This document shows positions 3,801-59,949 of a DNA stretch of 64,000 nt, in pieces. Positions within the stretch are counted from its first letter, which is position 1. Every line of letters begins with the position of its first letter. The stretch is from NCBI GenBank assembly GCA_034687125.1, contig JAQGBZ010000006.1, positions 124,001 through 188,000 on the forward strand. The letters are read 5' to 3'. Position numbers and translations under genes: made by a program. The notes below the pieces were generated by a model. The model worked only from the letters and a program-made list of their open reading frames with translations, was not told where the DNA came from and ran no database searches. The DNA comes from Neelides folsomi (taxonomy: Eukaryota > Arthropoda > Collembola > Neelipleona > Neelidae).

Positions 3801-6800
3801 AGGCCGCCTGGTGCAGGAAGGAAAAAGAAAGAAGTTCCCGTTTCAATTTCAATCATTGAGGATGATTCGTTGAATGGAGATGATGGGGGTCCGCCGGTGA
3901 GACAAAGTCGTAGGATTGCTCAAATTCGGCAAAAGGAAGAGGAAGATCGGAGGAAATTAGAAGAAGAACGACTCATACAACTCAAGGAGGCTCAAATTAA
4001 AAAGAAGTTAAAGGAGCAAGATAAAACCACTAAGCCAGTAAGTTATTATTTTTAAATTAATTTTATTATTTGTTGGAATGTTTAGAATTTATAGTTTAAG
4101 TTGTTATCTGAAATTTTAATTTATCTGAATTGCTAAATTAATATTACAAAATAGTAAATTAAATCACATCTTTTTATTTAAACTTATTTGTTAATTCATA
4201 ATTTGGATATTTAGGACGGGAAAAAAGAAAAGAAATTGAAAAACGATAAAAATTATTTGCCAACTCCATCGGCCAGTGATTCCGAGTCTGGGGAAGGAGG
4301 AGATGAATTTGAAGCAGTTGGAAAAGAAAAGAAAAAGAGGAAGAAGAGGAGGAAAAACGGTAAAGGAAGAAAAAAGACAGGAAATCCATGGGCCACATCT
4401 TCAGACGATGATGATGAAGAGGATGAAGAAGGTGTGGAGGAGGAAGAGGAAGAAGAACATGAAGAAGAAGAAGAACTCGTTTTCAACAGATCGGACCATG
4501 AGTTTTCACCTGAATCTGATCTTGGAGAAGACGATGAAGACTTTTCACCCCGTCATGCCAGAACTGCTAAACGAGGTTAAAATTTATTATTATTATACTC
4601 AATTATATAATTGTTATCAGGATATTATAATAACAAAATTGAATATATTTTAGGAGAGGAAATTGTGGATAAATACGCCACGACCAATTGTAACAAATGT
4701 TACAAGGGCGATCATCCTGAATGGATTCTTCTCTGTGATGCGTGCGACAAAGGTTGGCATGCTTCTTGTCTTCGTCCACAACTTTGGGTTATTCCTGAAG
4801 GAGAATGGCATTGCCCACCTTGTCAACATGTAAATTTTAATTTTAATTACTTATAATCATTACCGAAATTGTAGTTAATTAATTGGGTTAATTGTTGGAT
4901 TAATTATTAGTAATTGAGTTAAATGTTTGGTTGATTATTTTCAGAATATGCTGGTAGTAAAATTGGATGAGAATCTCATAGAATATGATAAACTTCTCAA
5001 ACGACGGGAAAATGAAGTCTTAAGGAAAGAAAGACTTGCTTATGTTGGGATAAGTTTGAACAACGTCATTCCATCCGCTCCTGAAATACCTGAAGAAGCC
5101 GAACCTGAAACAAATAAACATCGTAAAAGGCGTTATCATTCTGATGACGAAGATGAACTTTCAGGTGATTTTATCGACGAAAACTCAGACCTTTCGGCAT
5201 CTGATGTTTCCGAAGATGAGCCAATTTATAAACTGAGGGCTCGGAAAGCGACGAAAAACTTTTCCTTCCAAGAATATGATGACATGATCAATTCTGCTCT
5301 GAGGGTATTTCTAAAACCAATCATTCAATCAATTTATTATATTGTATTCATGCTTTTATACTTCGTTCTTTCATTTTTTAAAAAATAGCATTCAGTAAGT
5401 ATTAAAACCACTTGTTTATAATAGGAGGAGGATGAAGAAAATCAAAATGAAGTGCCGAATGAGAAAGTGGAAGTTCCACCAGAATTGAGGGAAGAAGGAG
5501 CTGAAGCTGAAGAGAATGAAGTCAAAGAGAGCGAAGGCGAAGGTGAAGAGGAGGTCGAAGGCGAGGGTGGAATTAAATCCTCGAAAATTAAAATTGTTAG
5601 TGACGAGGAAGAAGTCACTTTAGAAGAGTTAAACAGAAGGAAAGAACTTTTGAAAAATAGTACTCGAAAGTCTCGTAGGCGTCTTAATGACCTCGACGCG
5701 ACAAGTGAGGAAGATTCTGATGAAGACTTCAAAGGTAAGAGTTTACGATATGGAGAATGTTTACATTTTCATAGTTAATATTTTAAATTACATATTATCT
5801 ATTATTTGTTTCATTAGGCTCTGGAGGAGAAGACGAAGAAGAGGAATTGGAAGAAAAGGAAGATTCTGAGTGGTCAGGAGGGAAAGACGACGACGAGTCG
5901 GACGATTCAATTGCTCGAGTTACAATCGCTCGAACTAAAATCAAAAAGCAAGGAAGGCTTGGAAGAAGAGAGAAACTTACCGACTCTGGAACCGTCCGTC
6001 GATCAACAAGGAGAAGAAGGAATCGAGTTTCTTGTAAGATCAATTTAAAAATAACGAATCATTCAAAGTAAAAATATAAAAGATTTTGTAGTTATAATTT
6101 TAGAAAAAACTTAATTTGAAATTTTAATTTAGACGATGAGAGTGATGAAGATGAAGAAGAGGAAAAGGGAGCAGAATGGAATTCAAACACAGAGGAAGAA
6201 TCTGAGGATGAAGCTTCTGGCTCTGGATCTGATTCTGAGTCTGACGATGAAACTTGGGGAAAGCGCAAGAAAAGACCGCCACCTCCGAAGAAAATGTCTT
6301 CTGCCTTCTTTACCAATGTCGCTAAACTTGGGAAAATTGCTAATAAGAAGCCTCCGGCAAAGAAGAAAAAGAAGGTTGATGACGAAGAAGTCGATCGTCC
6401 ATGGAGTAACGTAAGTCATTAATTTCGTTTATAATTTATTGCAATTATTTTAATCAAATCAGTTAAATTAGCGGTATTTGAATTTATTTATATAATTTTT
6501 TTAATAATTTTAGAAGCACGGGAACAAGTCCAAGACTGAAGAGGAACCTGTTGAAAGGAAAACAAGAGGAAAAAAGATCAACTTTAAAGACATTTTAGAT
6601 TCTGGAGAATCTGATGATGATGGAAATATTCGACCGAAAAGGAGGTTAATAATTTTTGAATATTTATCCCTAATATTTATTATTGTTGACGATTGTTTAT
6701 CTTTTCATTATTCCTTCGAATCGTGATTAACTCTGAAAATATAATTTTGATTGATTGTTTTTATAGGAGAGTCTTGTCAGAATCAGATTCAGATGGTCCT

Positions 6801-19959: not shown

Positions 19960-22543
19960 CTATTCTTCAGTGTCGTCTCTCAAGTTTCTCGTCGTTTCAT
20001 TCGTCTCTGTCGACTCAGATTTCCAGAATAAAGAGACAAAGGCTACAATTAGAAAGATGATTCCCAAAGCTCCATAATAGCAGCCATACACTTGGAATTG
20101 GGTTTTAATGGAGAGCCCAAGGCCCAGTTCGTCGACGACAATAAGCGTCAGAATAGTTTGGACCGAAAGAGCCACAAATGTGTTGATTCCAAAGATGAGC
20201 CCGTAGCTGTCTTCTCTGATTCCCTCTGCCACTTCCGCACTATTATTCCAGGAAGGAAGTGAAAGACATTAATCATCCCAAATTTCAAGCCCAATTACCT
20301 CCATGACATTTAGTGGGAAATGAGAGATTAATTAAAGAACATGAACATAGAACAAGAACAACTATTCTATTCATCCTATTCATTAATATGTATTCAATAC
20401 TACTCAATAAGAGATTTACGGGTATAAGGAATAAATACTAGATTGTATACCTAAGTATTATTGTATAAGGAACAAATAGATCCGAACCTTGCCACCGTAA
20501 TCACGACTTGATAAAGCGTCCGAAATATCACGTATGAGATATATGCCAGAGTTATATTCCCAGTGATGGCCGAAAGGAACAAAACCACGCCTTGGAGTAA
20601 GGAAATAAGCGATAGGAAAATTTCACCGTATTTGGACCAAGGCAGCTTTACGTGACCGACTCCAAACGCCAAGAGTGTGCCTGAATTAAAGGGATTAAAT
20701 AGGAAGTCCTTTGGCATTTGTTTTCCTTCACTCACTCAACAACGTATGGGTGGCCTCGACAGCTCCTGAAATCCATTAAAACCTTCATTTGAGCCCTTCA
20801 TGCGGGAGAATCGGAGAATCGGGGAAATAAGGGGAGTTAAAGTAAAGTAAAAGTACCGTTGTAAATTTCCCCGTCTGTGTAAGGATGGATAGACTCCCAG
20901 AGCGGTTGGATATAATTGATCACTTGTAAGTGACCCGAAGTGGCAATGGCCCACCAAAGAGACCATTTCACAACATAAGAGTTTGAATACGCCTCTTTGA
21001 AGTCTTTCCATAGGATTGGATAAGCTTCTTTGACTCGCTGTGTAAATGAGAGACCGGTGGGGGTTTGGCGGTAAAAGTACATGGACTGGTCCACCGGTGG
21101 AAGGAAGAGAGAAATCCCGAGAGCAATGGAAGTAGTGCAGAGAGAGATGTAATTCAGCTCATGGTAATTCATCAATTTGGTAGAGACAAGAATTTGAGCA
21201 AAAACACCGGCCAGGAAACGGCCAAAAAATATGGCACTGTAAGTGTAGGAAGTCACCTTCTTGTAATGTTCTCGGTCCACCTTGGCGTAGATGTATGTGT
21301 AATAGGCGACTTCGGTCGAACAAGCAAGGCCGTAAAGTGTCTCCACGATCTGTCCCAATTACTTTGAGTTAATTTATGTAAGAGGATTATCAACATGGGT
21401 GAACGTTGTGTGGTGAACGTTGTGTAGTAAAGAATTTGGTAAAATGGCCAATTTCCATTTTTTATCAATTGTTGATAAAATGGATATAGCCGGTTTTCAC
21501 AATAAAATCGGACCATGTTAATTGCAAGTGAAAAGAGAATAAATTATTTGAATGAGATTGAATCCACAGATGAAAAAATTTGTATTTCATTTTCTATGTC
21601 CTCAAATAACACATATTTCGCTCTCATTCAATAGAAATGAAAGACAATGTCGAAGATTTTAAGGTAAGATTTTAAATGGGGAATTTAATAAACTTGAATT
21701 CCCTCCTACTGCTCTTCCAAGATTGAACGATAATATTTTATTACTTGACAGTTATCCTACATAGATATAATATACATTTGCTTATTAAATCTCTGTATGA
21801 AACCGAGATATCATAATGTTGAGGTTATTGAAGTGTTCCATCATCATTGGTCATCTGCATCGGGCAAAAAAGTGTAATGATGAAATGGGGGATATTAAAA
21901 GAAACTCGTTTGAAGCCTTTGATGTTAAGTAGATATAATATGTGGGGGGAATCCTTTGGTATGGAAATCGGCTAATAAATATTGAAGCCGCTCGAACTCA
22001 AACCTAAAGACTAAATAGCTAAAAGCTAAAGGGAAATGCTAAAGGGAAATGAAATGAGTAAATGAAATGAGATGTATTGAGTGATTCAATTTCACTTGTA
22101 CTAATTAAGTAAGGTAAAAAGGGTCGAAGCTTGAATTTAGTCAGAATGATTAAATCATGATTGAGTTGGTTTACTTTGATGGTTGTGAGATTTGGACCCC
22201 AAATGATGGTAACCCATGTGGCGACATAGGCGAATCCTTCCAAGATAACGATGGATCGATAGCGAAGAAAATCCGTCACGAGGAAGACGATGGCCAAAGT
22301 TCCCAAATAGCTATAAGTGGAGATCGGATATGCTTCATTGACAAGCTGCGAAAAATTAAAATTGCACACGTGAAGTGGGATGATTCCTCATAAGAGATTT
22401 AAATTACAAGAAATTCTTACCGTTTCCGCTGTCACGTTCTTGTAATGTATGAGATATTCGGTGAAGTAGGGCTCAGATGGACGGAATTCTTTAAAGAGAC
22501 CAAAACCGCAAAGAATGAGAGCCGTCAGTCTCCATTTCTCCAT
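19960..22543 (-). CDS. SLC19-family folate/thiamine transporter
   Basis: Plasma-membrane vitamin carrier of the reduced folate/thiamine family. Exons in transcription order: 22543-22421, 22345-22175, 21349-20857, 20765-20736 (30 nt), 20680-20488, 20239-19960; 429 aa, close to the short end of family length. The first exon carries the SLC19 membrane-segment-1 signature (ILCGFGLFKEFRPSEPYFTE) and a glycosylation site NVT; exon 3 has STEVAYYTYIYAKVD and YKKVTSYTYSA, typical of SLC19A2/A3; the micro-exon encodes AVEATHTLL, part of the family's YNGAVEA motif; the last exon has GLIFGINTFVAL. About twelve hydrophobic segments are expected. The cytoplasmic tail is short and acidic. The closest resemblance seems to be the thiamine carriers, but substrate cannot be fixed from sequence. 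The gene lies upstream of the esterase on the same strand with its own spacer. Confidence 0.9.
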
Positions 22544-40424: not shown

Positions 40425-41413
40425 TTAAGGTTTTTCAAATATTTTAACCCAATCAATTTCTAATGTCGGTTTAGTCCAAGTGTCAGCATCTTCAGGTGTC
40501 AAAGTTCCATATTTAGCAGGTGGAAAAGCCCGTCCACCAACTTCCAAGCTCACGACCAATTCAAAGTGTCGATTAAACGGTCCAATTTCCCTTTCGGACT
40601 CACAGGGTGGTTCAGAATTCGGTTTGGTCCAGTCCGATATGAAATGAGTATTCATCTCATGGACTTGTCTCCCATCAACATACCAAATTAATTTAGTTGA
40701 CCTCCACTCCAAACCAAACTCGTGGAAATCGTTGGTAAAATCAGTGCGAGGGAAAACTTTTTCGCTTGCTCGGCTGGAGGCAGAATAAAAGTTCCGTCCA
40801 TGATAAGCTGAGAAAATCAAAGTGGCTGGTCTTTGGCCACGCAACTTTGCAATGTTCACTTCTTCATAAATGCAATCAGAGGCATTCGGAGCTCGGAGCC
40901 AAATATTTGATAAGAGTTGTTGTCCACGGGCCATTCGGGCCCTAACGACAATGCTCCCATATCTGATGTTCGGCTTCTTGAGGCGGATTCGTGCAGAAGT
41001 GAAACGTTTATGTTGCCACAATTCGGGCATTGCTTTTATAACCAACGAGCCCCCTTTGACATCAATATTCTCGTTTTGAACAAGTGTCCAAGGATCAAAT
41101 GCTTTAAAACACTCCATGTTTACATCTCCATCTCCTCGACCTATACAAAATAAAATTAAAAAATTGAAATGTTAAAAAATTGAGATTTAATAATGTAAAA
41201 AAATGAAGATTAAAAAATGTTTAAAAAATTAACTAAAAGAATAATTTGTTTTATTTTATGAAAACCTTTGCACGAATCATCCGAGTCCCAAAAATTCGTT
41301 CCGAGAACGTCTCCATCAAAGTCTTCACTAAAGATCAACTTCCCCCTTTTTTGCCCAAGAGATCCAGTAGAAAAAATTGTGATTAATGCTAAAACGAATA
41401 TTGCCACTTCCAT
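40425..41413 (-). CDS. Secreted GH16-like beta-glucan-binding protein, probably non-catalytic
   Basis: Two exons, 41413-41266 and 41140-40425, joined in phase; 287 aa. A signal peptide (MEVAIFVLALITIFSTGSLG) leads into a glycoside hydrolase family 16 jelly-roll: LIFSEDFDGD, WTLVQNENIDVKGGSLVIKA, FTSARIRLK, YGSIVVRARMARG, FHEFGLEW and IDWVKIF are family landmarks. The active-site strand, normally EIDIME, reads EVNIAK at residues 143-148: the presumed nucleophile Glu143 remains but the Asp and the acid/base Glu are replaced by Asn and Lys. It is therefore like the arthropod GNBP/beta-glucan recognition proteins, extracellular sensors of fungal or bacterial glucans, though it has no N-terminal carbohydrate-binding module. 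It may alternatively be an inactivated digestive glucanase. Confidence 0.88.
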
Positions 41414-42984: not shown

Positions 42985-45900
42985 ATGGCTTTGAAGAAAG
43001 TTAAAGGGAATCTTGAGCGGTTGTTCGACAAAAATTTGACAGATCTTGTCAGAGGGATTCGGAATAATAAAGATAATGAGGTAATCACCCTATATATGGC
43101 CAGTGAACTATTAAATATAAAATGGTTTATTTGATTATTTATTGTAAAATTTAAATTTTAAAATGGTTATTTTGTTCATTTAGGCCAAATACATTGCGCA
43201 ATGTATGGAAGAAATTAAAGTTGAGCTTCGGCAGGATAATATTGCGGTCAAGACGAATGCTGTGACAAAATTAGCTTATGTAAAATCCAAATCTCAATAA
43301 TTTTAATTATAATTACCATTTTAAAGTACAAAGAATCTTATTCGCATTGGTATCTTTATATATTACCCTTAAATAATTATATTTAAATATTAAATTTAAA
43401 TATATTTTGACTTCCAGCTTCAAATGGTCGGATATGACATATCTTGGGCAGGATTCAACATCATTGAAGTCATGAGTTCAACAAAGTTCACTCATAAACG
43501 GATCGGATATTTGGCTGCTTCGGTGAGCTTCCACAGTGATTTGGAGCTTCTCATGTTGACCACAAATATGATCCGGAAAGACTTGAGTAGTCAGAATCAA
43601 TACGAAGCAGGAATGGCTCTTTCAGCTCTATCTTGCTTTGTGTCCCCTGACCTTGCCCGTGACCTCTCCAATGATATTATGGTCCTACTCACTTCAACGA
43701 AGCCTTACTTGAGGAAAAAAGGAGTTTTGATGCTCTACAAAATATTCCTCAAATACCCTGATGCTCTCAAACCTGCCTTTCCTCGGTTAAAAGAAAAATT
43801 AGAAGATCCCGATCCAGGAGTTCAATCTGCTGCCGTAAATGTCATTTGCGAGTTGGCGAGAAAAAATCCGAAGAATTATTTGAGTCTTGCTCCGATTTTC
43901 TTCAAGCTTATGACTTCTTCCACCAATAATTGGATGCTCATAAAAATTATTAAATTAGTAAGTTTCTGCACATTACATAACATATTTTGGAGATTCAACA
44001 TTTTACCAACTAATGTTAATAAATAGAGTTATTTTTTTAATTAAACATTTTATTCTTTTTTAGTTCGGAGCCTTAACTCCACTAGAGCCGAGATTAGGAA
44101 AGAAACTCATCGAACCTTTAACCAATCTTATTCACAGGTTAGATTCGATTTAGTAAATTAAAACTGTTTAAATATGATAACACACATTATTATTAATATT
44201 TTCCCAATTTTTAATCGTTAAATTAAAAAGGGTTTATCGGTATTTGTAATAAAATAATTTTTACCTTTAGCACTTCTGCAATGTCTCTACTTTATGAATG
44301 TATCAACACAGTCATTGCAGGTATTCAATTCAATTTACATATACTTTGATTATAAAAGTTAAAATATATCAATCATGTTTTAAATTATATCTGAAAAATT
44401 TAAATAATGATTTTTTTATTTAGTATTGATATCGATAAGCAGTGGGATGCCAAATCACAATGCGGCAATTCAACTTTGTGTCCAAAAACTTCGAATTCTC
44501 ATCGAGGACTCAGATCAAAATTTAAAATACCTTGGACTCCTCGCCATGTCAAAGATTTTGTCTACACATCCAAAGAGCGTCCAAGGGCATAAAGATCTCG
44601 TCATGAGATGTCTGGACGATAAAGATGAAAGCATTCGCCTTCGTGCCCTTGATCTTCTTTATGGGATGGTGGGAAAGAAGAACCTCATGGAAATCGTAAA
44701 GAAATTGACAGTCCATATGGAAAAAGCAGAAGGGACGACGTACCGAGATGAACTTTTATCAAAAATAATTCTCATTTGCTCTCAGAATAATTATCAACAC
44801 ATCACAAACTTTGAATGGTACACTTTAATTATATGTACTAAATACTATAATAGACGGTTGCGATCAATCTAAATATTATTAAATGATCATTTTTTTATTT
44901 TAAAAAACAATAATTTATTTAAATGACTTTGCAGGTATGTGAGTGTTCTTGTGGAACTCACAAGGTTAGAAGGAGTGAGCCATGGCGATGTTGTAGCGAG
45001 TCAATTAATGGACGTAGCAATTCGTGTCTTGGCCATCCGTCCCTTCGCCGTCCAACAAATGAGTCTCCTTTTGGAAAATCCTGCTGCTGTTTTTGGATCT
45101 TCATTTACTAATACGAACAGAGTCCCTTCAATGGTTCAAGTACTCTACGCTGCAGCGTGGATTGCTGGAGAATATGTAAAGTAAGTCTGCTTTGAATTAC
45201 GTTAAACATCATAATTTAATAAATAAGCATTATTAAATAAATTGTAAATTAAATTTAAAAAATATTAGAAACAAAAACCGACTTCGTCTAATTGAAAATG
45301 AATGAGATGATAAATAATAAATGTAAATGAATTTTTTCTTAGATATTTGCCAAATCCTCGAGATACTCTTATGGCATTAATCGAGCCAAAGATGTCTCAG
45401 CTTCCACACAACATTCAAGCCGTTTTTCTTCAAAATGCTCTCAAAATCCTCGCTCATCTCATCAGCATTAAAGGGAAGAAACCAGAGGCATCAGAGGGGG
45501 ACGAAGATTTTAAATTAGAAACGAACAGAGAAGGATTAGATATCAATTTCGAAGAGATTCAAGAAAGACTCAAACCATTCATTTCCTCAGAGGAACTTGA
45601 AGTCCAAGAGCGGGCCTGTACACTCAACAATGTCATTCGTCTCTATTTGAAGTTAGAAGCAAGAGGGGAAGATGTGAGTGATCTTGGAGATGAACTCATT
45701 TCCTTCTTCTCATCCGAACTCAACCCTGTGGCTCCCAAAGCTCAAAAGAAAGTTCCAATTCCTGATGGCCTTGACTTGGACGCGTGGATCAACCAACCGC
45801 CTTCAGATTCTTCATCAGAAGAAGAAATTAGTGGACACTCGGAAGTGTTTATTAAAGATCACCAAGCTCAAGCGAAACAAACTTATTATGAGCCAACTAA

Positions 45901-46640
45901 AGAAGAAATATCTAAAGTAAGCAACAATGCAAAAAGACAATAGCTTGATAATAATAAATAATAATAATAATAATACATCTTTTGAGCTGTGAAATCTAAA
46001 ATAATATAATAGATATTTTAATATTAAAATAATAATTAAATTTTTTCAGCAACGAGATACTCGTATCGCTGAAAAGGAACTCAATCCCCATTATCTGAAA
46101 AGTAACAAGAAGGGGAAGATTGAACGTGAGGAATCTGGTGAGATGCCGCCAATTGAAAAGCTGGATCTTTCTGTTTCACTCCAAATCCCTTCGTTTGCCT
46201 CCTCCGACTCGTACCTCAAAAAGGATAAGAAAAAGAAGAAAAAGAAAGAGGAATCTCCCAAGAAGAAGAAAATGAAGAAGGTGAAGGAAGAAAAGGAAGA
46301 ACCATCCCTGTTGGGAGATGATATCCAATACGAGGAACCCAAAAACAATGGAGACGTTGAGATGGTCGAGGAAGTTCATGAAGTCCTCAACCACGAGATC
46401 GAACCAGAGATGGCTGACGTGAAGAAGAAGAAAAAGAAGAAGGAAGTGAAGAAGAAAAAGAAAAGGAAGGAAGTAGTCCTGAGCGAAGAAGATGAAGATG
46501 AAGAAATGGCTGTTGATCATGTCCACATTGTGAATACATATTCCGACATGCCTGAAGGAGCAACGCTTTCTGATAACGATGATTCCGCCCTTCCTCATGA
46601 TGACCCACACAGGGCCCTCAATATTGATTTGGATAATTAA
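42985..46640 (+). CDS. AP3D1: AP-3 complex subunit delta, ear-less
   Basis: Large subunit of the AP-3 adaptor, which sorts cargo from endosomes to lysosomes, pigment granules and related organelles. Exons: 42985-43080, 43184-43279, 43418-43957, 44064-44137, 44271-44320, 44424-44817, 44935-45180, 45343-45916, 46050-46640; 886 aa. Residues 1 to about 600 are an intact adaptin trunk of helical repeats, nearly identical to animal delta subunits in stretches such as LQMVGYDISWAGFNIIEVMS, LCVQKLRILIEDSDQNLKYL and RLRALDLLYGMV. The hinge includes the signature NPVAPKAQKKVPIPDGLDLD, then Lys-rich tracts and the end DPHRALNIDLDN. Human (about 1150 aa) and fly (about 1030 aa) proteins continue past this point into a lysine-rich linker and ear domain; here a stop follows at once. 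An AATAAA lies 79 nt downstream at 46719. The protein could still assemble with the other AP-3 subunits through the trunk. Confidence 0.92.
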
Positions 46641-56853: not shown

Positions 56854-57804
56854 ATGTTGGCGAATACCGGGTGAGCTTTATAATAAACACAAAAGCAATC
56901 GAATTTTAAATTATCAAACAGCTTTAAAAAATAAATAATGACATTTTAACTATTGACTTTAACAGGAAACTTGCTTGTCGTACTGTCACAAGGGGAATTG
57001 CTCTCAAATTGGCCAAGAGCAACATTGGAGGAATTGATATTTTGATCAGAAATGCGAGTGCAATCAGCTTGACAAAAACGGTCCAAACTTCGATGGAAAA
57101 ATATGATTCAACGCATGGCATTAACGGAAAGGGAACATTTTTAGTGTGAGTATTCATTTTAATAATATTTAAGATGTGCTACGTTTAGGGTGATTTTCAA
57201 TTAATTTTTTTGAAACCTGTATAAAGTCCATCATTGAATCTTAACACTCGATGGTTCGCGAGCGATGCAAAAAATGAAGACGGGTCTAATTCAGCTGGCA
57301 CGGATGAAATTGGAGGCATTATGAAAAAGATTGAAGGAATTCTTTCCCCAGATGTTGTGAAAACGACGAATGCGATTTTTCAATTCGACATCAAAGGTAA
57401 ATTAGTAAACGTAAATAATATCACACATTCGAAATGCATTTATAAATATGTAATAATATGATATTGGTACGTGTGAAAGTAGTTTTTATATTTATGCGAA
57501 TAAAAATGTACTTATAATTTATATGTAATATATTATAATATAAAAAATGTTTTTAAACCCGATAGGCGACAATGCTGGAAAATGGTATTTGGATCTGAAA
57601 ACTGGCGGTGGAAGTGTTGGACAAGGAGATTCTCCAGTAAAGTCGGACGTTCTTCTTTCAATGGCCTCCGCTGATTTTGTAAAAATGTTCACCGGAAAAT
57701 TGAGCCCAACTTCTGCTTACATGACTGGAAAACTCAAAATGAAAGGAGACATCACAAAGGCCATGGCTCTTGACAAACTCATGGGAAAAATGAAGACAAA
57801 ATAA
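56854..57804 (+). CDS. HSDL2-derived protein: collapsed SDR plus SCP2 domain
   Basis: Exons: 56854-56870, 56966-57145, 57227-57396, 57566-57804; 201 aa, half the usual HSDL2 length (about 418). It begins like HSDL2 (MLANTGKLA), keeps fragments of the short-chain dehydrogenase domain in order (RGIALKLAK, GGIDILIRNASAISLT, PSLNLNTRWF) but lacks the dinucleotide-binding TGxxxGxG loop and the catalytic Tyr-x3-Lys. From about residue 90 it is a well-kept sterol carrier protein 2 domain (LSPDVVKTTNAIFQFDIKG, GKWYLDLKTGGG, FVKMFTGKLSP, MTGKLKMKGD), the lipid-binding part of the peroxisomal/mitochondrial parent. Introns of 81-169 nt are too short to hide the missing 200 residues. It may be a working SCP2-like lipid carrier or a fading duplicate. 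The end KTK lacks a clear peroxisomal PTS1. Confidence 0.8.
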
Positions 57805-58438
57805 TAATTTCGTATATCTTAATGTATATCCAGTAAGCTTTTTTTCATTTTGTTAAACATATTTATCAAACTACAAAATATAAAACTTGGACTGGGACCC
57901 ACAATTAATATTTGAATGTTAATCGTAATTAAATTATTTATGTATTTAAACTTTATAATCGTTATTAATTATATTATTTAGTTATTAAACTTTATTGTAC
58001 GTCGTTCGTACCTATCCATTTCAAAGATTAAAATTGTTATATTCATCTGAAGCCAGTAGCATTCTTTAAAAACTTTTCATCCGTATTTCATTAAAATACC
58101 TATATTAATAATTTTAATTTCATCTTTATTAAAATGAAAATATTAAAGATTATTTGGCCTAATGGTTTTATAAACGTAAAACAGGATTTAACTGAAATAA
58201 ACGCAATGTAATGAAACTGGATAGTGGTTATTGAACTGTGGTAGAGGAAACTTCCTCACTGGGGTATAAGGAAAGAATAGGATAAGATATGATGATAAAT
58301 GGCGGTTAGTGGACGGGAGTTTTAAAATATTGTGATAAAGCAGTCATAAATTGACTTTCTCCATTTCTCCCTGTCTGTTTGCGGAATGAGTTGGCCGTAT
58401 GGACGGAGGAAGTAAAGGATTGTCACAGGAAGGTCAGG
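57805..58438. other. Spacer and SLC35E1 5' region
   Basis: 3' flank of the HSDL2-like gene, with a variant poly(A) signal ATTAAA at 57984-57989, followed by the presumed promoter and 5' UTR of the next gene. The frame of the next gene extends upstream to about 58379 but has no ATG there. Confidence 0.4.
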
Positions 58439-59949
58439 ATGCACGGAAGTGTCAAGGTAGCACTTCTCATCATCACTTGGTATGGAATTTCGTCCATCAA
58501 CAATGTGGTGGGGAAGTCGCTGCTCAACCAATTCCCATTTCCCATGACCCTTACATTTGTCCAACTCCTCTCCATATCTATTTACTCCGGATTCTTATCA
58601 CAAGGTAGAAGAACGGAGAAATCTGCAGCGCTACAACCATTTTACTATAAGGTAAATAATTAATTAACAAGCATACTATACCTATCAAAATTAAAATAAG
58701 AATTTAGTATAAGAGAAATATAATTATTTATTTTTACAGCTCATAGTTCCACTCGCAATTGGGAAGTTTCTTTCGTCCGTTTCTTCTCATTTTAGCATAT
58801 GGCTCGTCCCGGTATCATACGCTCACACTGGTAATTGAATCGAATTTGATCAAATTAAAATTATGTTAAATATTGTATTGAATATGTTAAATACAGGAAA
58901 AATATTTATTAATAGTATTATAAAAATTATAATGATTTTTTGGGGATTTCACAGTGAAAGCTACGATGCCTCTCTTCACGGTTCTCCTGGCGAGAGTTCT
59001 ATTGAAAGAGGTCCAATCTACGTCGATATACTTATCACTTGTCCCGATCATAGCAGGAGTCACGATTGCGACAATGACAGAGTTCAATTTTGATGTGATG
59101 GGATTAATAGCTGCTCTGATTGCAACATGCGGGTTTTCGCTCCAAAATATATTCAGCAAAAAACTGATGAAAGACACGGGAGTTCACCATATCGCACTTC
59201 TTGTAATTTCCTACGAGAACATTAATGATCTTTGGATTTGGAAGTCATTAAAGTAATTCAATTAAATAATAATATGAAATATTTTATATTTTATAGGCAT
59301 TGCTCGCAAGACTTGCACTTTTCATATTTACGCCTATTTGGATCATTTTTGAGGGTTGGACATTACTTTTTAAAATGGTAAGATTTTATACATATATTGT
59401 ACCCATTATTTAAACTTTTACAGCATACTGAAATCAATAGTATTTTTGTAGAGTACTCTACATAATGTTGATAATAAATTAATTTTTTTAATTTAACAGG
59501 GATCGTTCAATATTGAAGCCTATGGGCTTTTGTGGTTGGACGGAATGTTGAATTTTCTCCAGAACATTTTTGCTTTTACAATATTATCTCTCGTGACGCC
59601 GTTGACTTACGCTGTGGCAAATGCCACAAAAAGGATAGCAATCATTGGAGTTTCTCTTTTTATAATGAGAGTAAGTTAAAAAAATTAGACGTTCTTCCTT
59701 CTAATGTAATTAGAGTATGTATTACATTTTAACACATTAACTACCATTAAGTAATAAGATTTATCTAATGGTTTTCTTCTAATAAAGAATCCTGTGAGTG
59801 GTACAAATGTTTTTGGAATGTTTGTCGCAATCCTCGGAGTCTTCCTCTACAACAGAGCAAAGTTCCTTGAAAAGAAAATGAAACTTTTACCTACAACGAC
59901 TAAGGACGACCTCAACTTCAATCGAATTTCCATGAACGCTGTGGTTTAA
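58439..59949 (+). CDS. SLC35E1: SLC35E1-like nucleotide-sugar/triose-phosphate-type transporter
   Basis: Golgi/ER-type solute transporter of the triose-phosphate translocator branch; the substrate of SLC35E1 is not established. Exons: 58439-58651, 58740-58830, 58955-59202, 59297-59377, 59500-59670, 59788-59949; 321 aa. The start at 58439 gives [19 protein letters not shown], directly at the first membrane segment, as in the family. Family landmarks are [93 protein letters not shown] and [16 protein letters not shown]. About ten membrane segments are expected. It is slightly shorter than human SLC35E1 (about 410 aa) because the cytoplasmic C-terminal tail is short. All catalytic-pore-type conserved stretches that I can see are kept. 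Confidence 0.92.

Follow-up and report, generated by a model that had tools for sequence, protein, structure and literature searches.

HSDL2 proteins join a short-chain dehydrogenase (SDR) domain to an SCP2 lipid-binding domain. SCP2 domains also occur by themselves, in stand-alone carriers such as SCP2D1 in mammals and the SCP2-like proteins of mosquitoes, and in other enzyme fusions: that of HSD17B4 belongs to a multi-domain peroxisomal enzyme, and SCPx yields an SCP2 product able to function apart from its enzyme partner. Human HSDL2 is described as carrying the PTS1 ARL and as located in both peroxisomes and mitochondria, the mitochondrial location being blocked by an N-terminal tag (PMC3583843). 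A second source predicts an N-terminal mitochondrial sequence in the human and mouse proteins (PMC11141617), and a third reports that triacylglycerol is mobilised by HSDL2 in vitro (PMC12979188). A literature search, mostly of titles, recognised no description of an HSDL2 paralogue without an SDR domain.

The window analysed here is a 64,000-nucleotide stretch of the springtail Neelides folsomi (GenBank assembly GCA_034687125.1, contig JAQGBZ010000006.1; C6:124001-188000 of a 75.1 Mb genome). It contains a four-exon gene on the forward strand (56854-57804) that is open from ATG to stop and encodes 201 amino acids plus stop (Table 1). Its product is an SCP2-only protein that derives from HSDL2 and does not constitute a new system. 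We favour, with a probability of roughly 70%, the reading that the gene is an old, dispersed HSDL2 duplicate that is not dying but would now serve as an independent lipid carrier of the SCP2 type.

Table 1. Features of the SCP2-only gene, in window positions ("old" refers to the exons and introns of the full-length copy)
Feature	Position	Strand	Remarks
Exon 1	56854..56870	+	17 nt; ATG, MLANTG; matches exon 1 of full-length copy in length and phase
Intron 1	56871..56965	+	95 nt, GT-AG
Exon 2	56966..57145	+	180 nt; remnant of old exons 2 and 3, fused by a loss that includes old intron 2
Intron 2	57146..57226	+	81 nt, GT-AG
Exon 3	57227..57396	+	170 nt; PSLNLNTRWFAS (SDR remnant), 13-residue linker (79-91), SCP2 start
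SCP2 part, first stretch	57303..57396	+	from Asp92, in exon 3
Intron 3	57397..57565	+	169 nt, GT-AG; counterpart of the full copy's intron 5
Exon 4	57566..57804	+	remaining SCP2 domain and stop
C-terminus	57787..57804	+	...KMKTK, TAA, second TAA; full copy ends KLKSKL; PTS1 lost

All three introns run from GT to AG, and the gene shows no frameshift, stop or broken splice site of the kind that would mark a pseudogene. In the middle intron the frame is kept solely with the acceptor before 57227 (CCTGTATAAAG), which looks weak when judged by eye; splicing to any of the other three AGs would leave an intron of 5, 28, or 43 nt and run into a stop after 70-75 residues. The acceptor before 57227 aligns with the AG that ends the opening 60 nt of old exon 4, and a search for those 60 nt inside the window intron gave a similarity not above that of shuffled sequences (299/500 reach the score). 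Pfam finds an SCP2 domain in the protein (84 bits, E = 1.1e-23, covering positions 13-100 of the 101-position profile), i.e. the predicted domain is nearly complete by profile, together with short-chain dehydrogenase traces that are sub-threshold only.

Two further places in the genome carry SCP2. At one (C481) lies a complete HSDL2, split into six exons and encoding 428 aa, with SGASRGIG, NNAS, YTMAK, an SCP2 domain, and a terminal SKL. A whole-genome search with this full protein recovers the SDR middle at high identity at C481 alone among the best candidates scored, with the window supplying the retained HSDL2 parts. The remaining matches outside the window have 25-37% identity: six places match the SDR region and presumably belong to other SDR genes, and the rest is the SCP2 of the second place (C36). 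At C36, C-terminal pieces of thiolase occur together with an SCP2 fragment whose last residues are TTASKL, and we therefore take it as an SCPx-type (thiolase-SCP2) gene; the window protein matches it with 35% identity over residues 138-194 of a 198-aa query. The contig of the full-length HSDL2 also holds, 1.6 kb downstream of that gene (C481, L011 5277-5490), an exact run of TTAGG over 15 nt (5277-5291), directly preceding a 74-bp tandem repeat in about two copies (5338-5490).

The homology of the window gene greatly exceeds chance, as seen from the Pfam SCP2 match and from comparison with this full-length HSDL2, with 157 of 188 aligned residues identical (63/78 in the SDR remnant), the 13 linker residues 79-91 being left out of identity and codon counts as unalignable. 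Both proteins share the MLANTGK start, the order of retained motifs, the phases of exon 1 and the last exon, and a C-terminal SCP2 domain; the homology is colinear, and both copies have in common the end of exon 1, the donor of old intron 3, and old intron 5. The window copy differs in lacking the glycine loop, a strand that probably carries the catalytic Ser, YxxxK, and the PTS1, and in having 201 rather than 428 residues. Specifically, it has lost 227/428 residues: 5, 4, 2, 55, 20, and 140 between successive anchors, and 1 at the C-terminus. Where the full copy has SGASRGIG the window copy retains just TRG, i.e. no TGxxxGxG-type loop, with IALKLAK and GGIDILIRNASAISLTK...GTFLV still present in exon 2. 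YTMAK (from 168) and HILNIS (from 147) of the full copy fall in segments absent from the window copy; we take the Ser of the HILNIS strand to be the catalytic one. Exon 3 is the remnant of old exons 4 and 5, and old introns 2 and 4 are both missing.

Each net loss comprises whole codons in the codon alignment, as judged from net lengths between anchors, and it is on this level that our claims about losses rest. When the two coding sequences are aligned freely as nucleotides, the losses break up into gaps whose lengths are in most cases not divisible by three and are compensated further along. Because the two alignments place gaps differently, events can be counted only roughly: at least four are separate, or six if the glycine-loop gaps are counted apart. 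Missing SDR parts hidden in further exons were rejected, given that the introns (95, 81, and 169 nt) are too short to hold them, and the SDR middle is found with high identity at C481 alone among the best candidates. The initial annotation had described a spliced HSDL2 relative with an SCP2 domain at exactly these coordinates, had argued the same from intron length, and had proposed looking for a full-length HSDL2 in the genome, all of which agrees with the open frame and the sister gene reported here; its view that the glycine loop and YxxxK were lost in frame also stands, with the estimate of about 200 missing residues corrected to 227.

Are the two halves of the protein preserved alike? Both were compared with bacterial outgroups. 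For the SDR part, all 23 bacterial matches found by the family profile in 21 of 143 genomes were used (one lies below the family cut-off). For SCP2, 36 domain sequences taken from 34 of 49 loci served as outgroup, after shorter, duplicate, and weak ones had been dropped; 30 of the 49 were the best among 171 genomes that gave a match. Counting only sites of at least 50% consensus to which the full copy conforms, the window copy breaks 9/42 in the SDR remnant and 0/30 in SCP2, for which the outgroup is remote (35/65 consensus sites are broken even by the full copy) and where poorly covered columns were omitted in both halves, with 14/15 differing remnant sites and 12/16 differing SCP2 sites counted. 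The halves differ significantly (Fisher two-sided, P = 0.008 at 50% consensus and P = 0.014 at 80%). At sites with 90% conservation in the same 23 SDR sequences the window copy breaks 5/16 and the full copy 0/16, and at the differing SCP2 sites the commonest outgroup residue is matched by the window copy at five and by the full copy at one. A first SDR outgroup (66 bacterial loci; profile 64/66), in which the window copy breaks 7/31 conserved sites and the full copy 0/31, was set aside for this claim because the peptides used to fetch it (e.g. MKKYDLMH and KDKANIVI) contain four of the seven broken sites.

Profile scores point in the same direction. For the remnant, the window copy scores below the full copy with NCBIfam NF006133 (43.6 vs 62.2 bits) and with a profile of the 23 family-found SDRs (46.4 vs 61.6 bits), while Pfam adh_short does not separate the two (16.2 vs 16.3 bits). 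For SCP2, it scores above the full copy with Pfam (86.1 vs 82.8 bits) and with a profile of the 36 bacterial domains (101.7 vs 96.9 bits). Single-sequence comparisons lean slightly toward the full copy: against HSD17B4 in PDB it reaches 68.6 bits and the window copy 65.3, and with tblastn it scores higher at all six loci common to both (e.g. 57.4 vs 57.0) and alone finds three more. From the outgroup breaks and the profile scores, the dehydrogenase half would therefore have been released and the carrier half kept, and we read the latter as apparently without measurable damage.

Divergence between the copies, compared over 188 shared codons (78 in the SDR remnant and 110 in SCP2), amounts to 79 synonymous and 41 nonsynonymous differences in the NG86 count. 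dS over all shared codons is 1.43 (NG86), 1.06 (YN00), or 1.26 (ML), and since it lies between 1.1 and 1.4 the copy is not young. The overall dN/dS of 0.069 (NG86), 0.098 (YN00), or 0.077 (ML) is far from the value of 1 expected of a pseudogene, although these ratios are pairwise, dS is close to saturation, and some of the constraint predates the SDR loss. The remnant has 0.072 (NG86), 0.10 (YN00), and 0.09 (ML), and SCP2 has 0.066 (NG86), 0.16 (YN00, where dS is only 0.67), and 0.066 (ML), i.e. with YN00 the order of the halves is opposite to that expected. If every nonsynonymous change is placed on the window branch, and that branch is taken as half of dS, our own arithmetic gives it a ratio of about 0.15 (ML, all codons) or at most about 0.31 (YN00, SCP2).

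How long the gene could have evolved neutrally was simulated for two branch lengths combined with two background ratios, each setting being run 300 times, assuming equal branches and a simple mutation model. Under these settings SCP2 rejects neutrality in the last part of the branch (P < 0.05) once that part reaches 10-15% of the longer branch or 30% of the shorter one, and for the remnant the corresponding limits are 20-30% and 50%; neutrality over half or the whole of the branch is rejected in every setting. Of the two possibilities raised in the initial annotation, a young decaying paralogue is thus disfavoured, as synonymous sites are near saturation and SCP2 rejects the longer neutral phases, and selection for an SCP2-only carrier gains from the low dN/dS, the intact SCP2 consensus, the broken sites in the SDR remnant, and the whole-codon losses.

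An older paralogue that was functional until selection ceased not long ago, and that is now in early decay with its frame intact by luck, is a different matter, and it is the strongest rival. Such a gene could well have lost its SDR core and PTS1 and broken conserved sites in the remnant, its single-sequence SCP2 scores could lie slightly under those of the full copy, and a short neutral phase is compatible with the substitution counts in the simulation. We nonetheless consider it unlikely. At least four separate losses, or six with the glycine-loop gaps apart, all removed whole codons in the codon alignment, for which the chance is about 1/81 to 1/729 if neutral indels fall evenly over the three frames (our own arithmetic). 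Luck would also have to account for 201 codons without a stop, and for an unbroken SCP2 consensus (0/30) beside a remnant with 9/42 sites broken.

The protein could also be shorter than the open frame suggests. Translation from an internal start at Met98 in exon 3, or transcription from a second promoter, would yield a 104-residue SCP2-only product and leave the SDR remnant as an untranslated leader. SCPx yields an SCP2 product, and the internal-start product would work likewise; its ATG lies right at the start of the domain (GGIM), and a relaxed remnant beside a kept SCP2 is what this arrangement would produce. A leader, however, needs neither in-frame losses nor an exon 1 with its ATG, and a remnant dN/dS of 0.07-0.10 is equally unneeded, which makes an internal start improbable in our view. 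Least credible of all is that the shortened SDR part still functions as protein, e.g. by binding or regulating full-length HSDL2 or forming a heteromer with it: the low remnant dN/dS and the 63/78 residues shared with the full copy agree with such a role, but a fold without glycine loop and catalytic core is unlikely to be stable, and conserved residues have changed.

We return to the stand-alone carrier. As the sequence shows, its SDR half has lost the cofactor loop, the probable catalytic Ser strand, and YxxxK in several frame-keeping losses, what remains of it is altered at otherwise conserved sites, SCP2 has kept the family consensus, and the C-terminal PTS1 has gone. The protein would be translated from the original ATG, would be incapable of dehydrogenase activity, and may bind lipid or acyl-CoA in its SCP2 cavity. 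It would work outside the peroxisome, in the cytosol or mitochondria, and the full-length copy would retain the enzymatic, PTS1-bearing role.

The loss of the C-terminal PTS1 is an addition to the initial annotation. The window protein ends in KTK and both other SCP2 genes of the genome end in SKL, i.e. among the three SCP2 genes found the signal is missing from the window copy only. Because the PTS1 is lost and human HSDL2 is both peroxisomal and mitochondrial, we infer that the product may be a cytosolic or mitochondrial SCP2-only carrier. Mitochondria are a possible site because the basic N-terminus is acid-free up to residue 29, an argument made from charge only: the first 25 residues hold five K/R and no D/E, but the full copy likewise has four K/R and no acid in its first 24, and its acidic residues 25 and 33 fall in segments lost from the window copy. 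Tentatively, the duplication may have split a dual-targeted HSDL2, with dehydrogenase and PTS1 retained by the full copy and both given up by the window copy, leaving the latter as a mitochondrial SCP2-only lipid or acyl-CoA carrier with the basic start of its eroded SDR as presequence; we regard this as possible but doubtful. If true, a targeting peptide would have been made from the remains of a defunct enzyme domain.

Among known systems, the candidate carrier resembles the stand-alone SCP2 proteins in that one SCP2 domain is the sole recognisable functional unit, and differs from them in being visibly HSDL2-derived, with 78 residues still alignable to SDR. Chains named 'Sterol carrier protein 2-like 2', presumably from mosquito, are among its weak PDB matches; its best solved-structure match by sequence (65 bits) is the SCP2 domain of HSD17B4 (multifunctional enzyme type 2), which, unlike the window copy, is part of a multi-domain peroxisomal enzyme. 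An SCP2 product serving without its enzyme partner is a likeness to SCPx, whereas the SCPx-type gene of this genome retains thiolase and SKL. In our judgement it is unusual to find an SCP2-only protein part-way out of an enzyme-carrier fusion, in which the in-frame losses of the enzyme half can still be traced against a sister gene that remains intact. Such a case is a natural experiment on whether HSDL2's SCP2 part has a use once the dehydrogenase is gone, and on the purpose of the two organelle addresses of HSDL2.

Other genes were also noted. The next gene downstream in the window (58436-59679, +) is a multi-exon member of the triose-phosphate-transporter family, with three exon pieces matching PF03151, and we take it to be SLC35E-like. 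Upstream, at 43400-46640 (+), the first open stretch (43400-44026) contains an Adaptin N-terminal region (PF01602); the Lys-rich tail of the later stretches suggests, as we assume, AP-3 delta. Open stretches on the reverse strand match glycosyl hydrolase family 16 (40425-41171) and a reduced folate carrier (20837-21358). Elsewhere in the assembly, a mitochondrial COX1 (C742, L135 1501-2841, -) that is open under code 5, as is probable for an invertebrate animal, has 11 in-frame TGA codons, which indicates an animal mitochondrial code.
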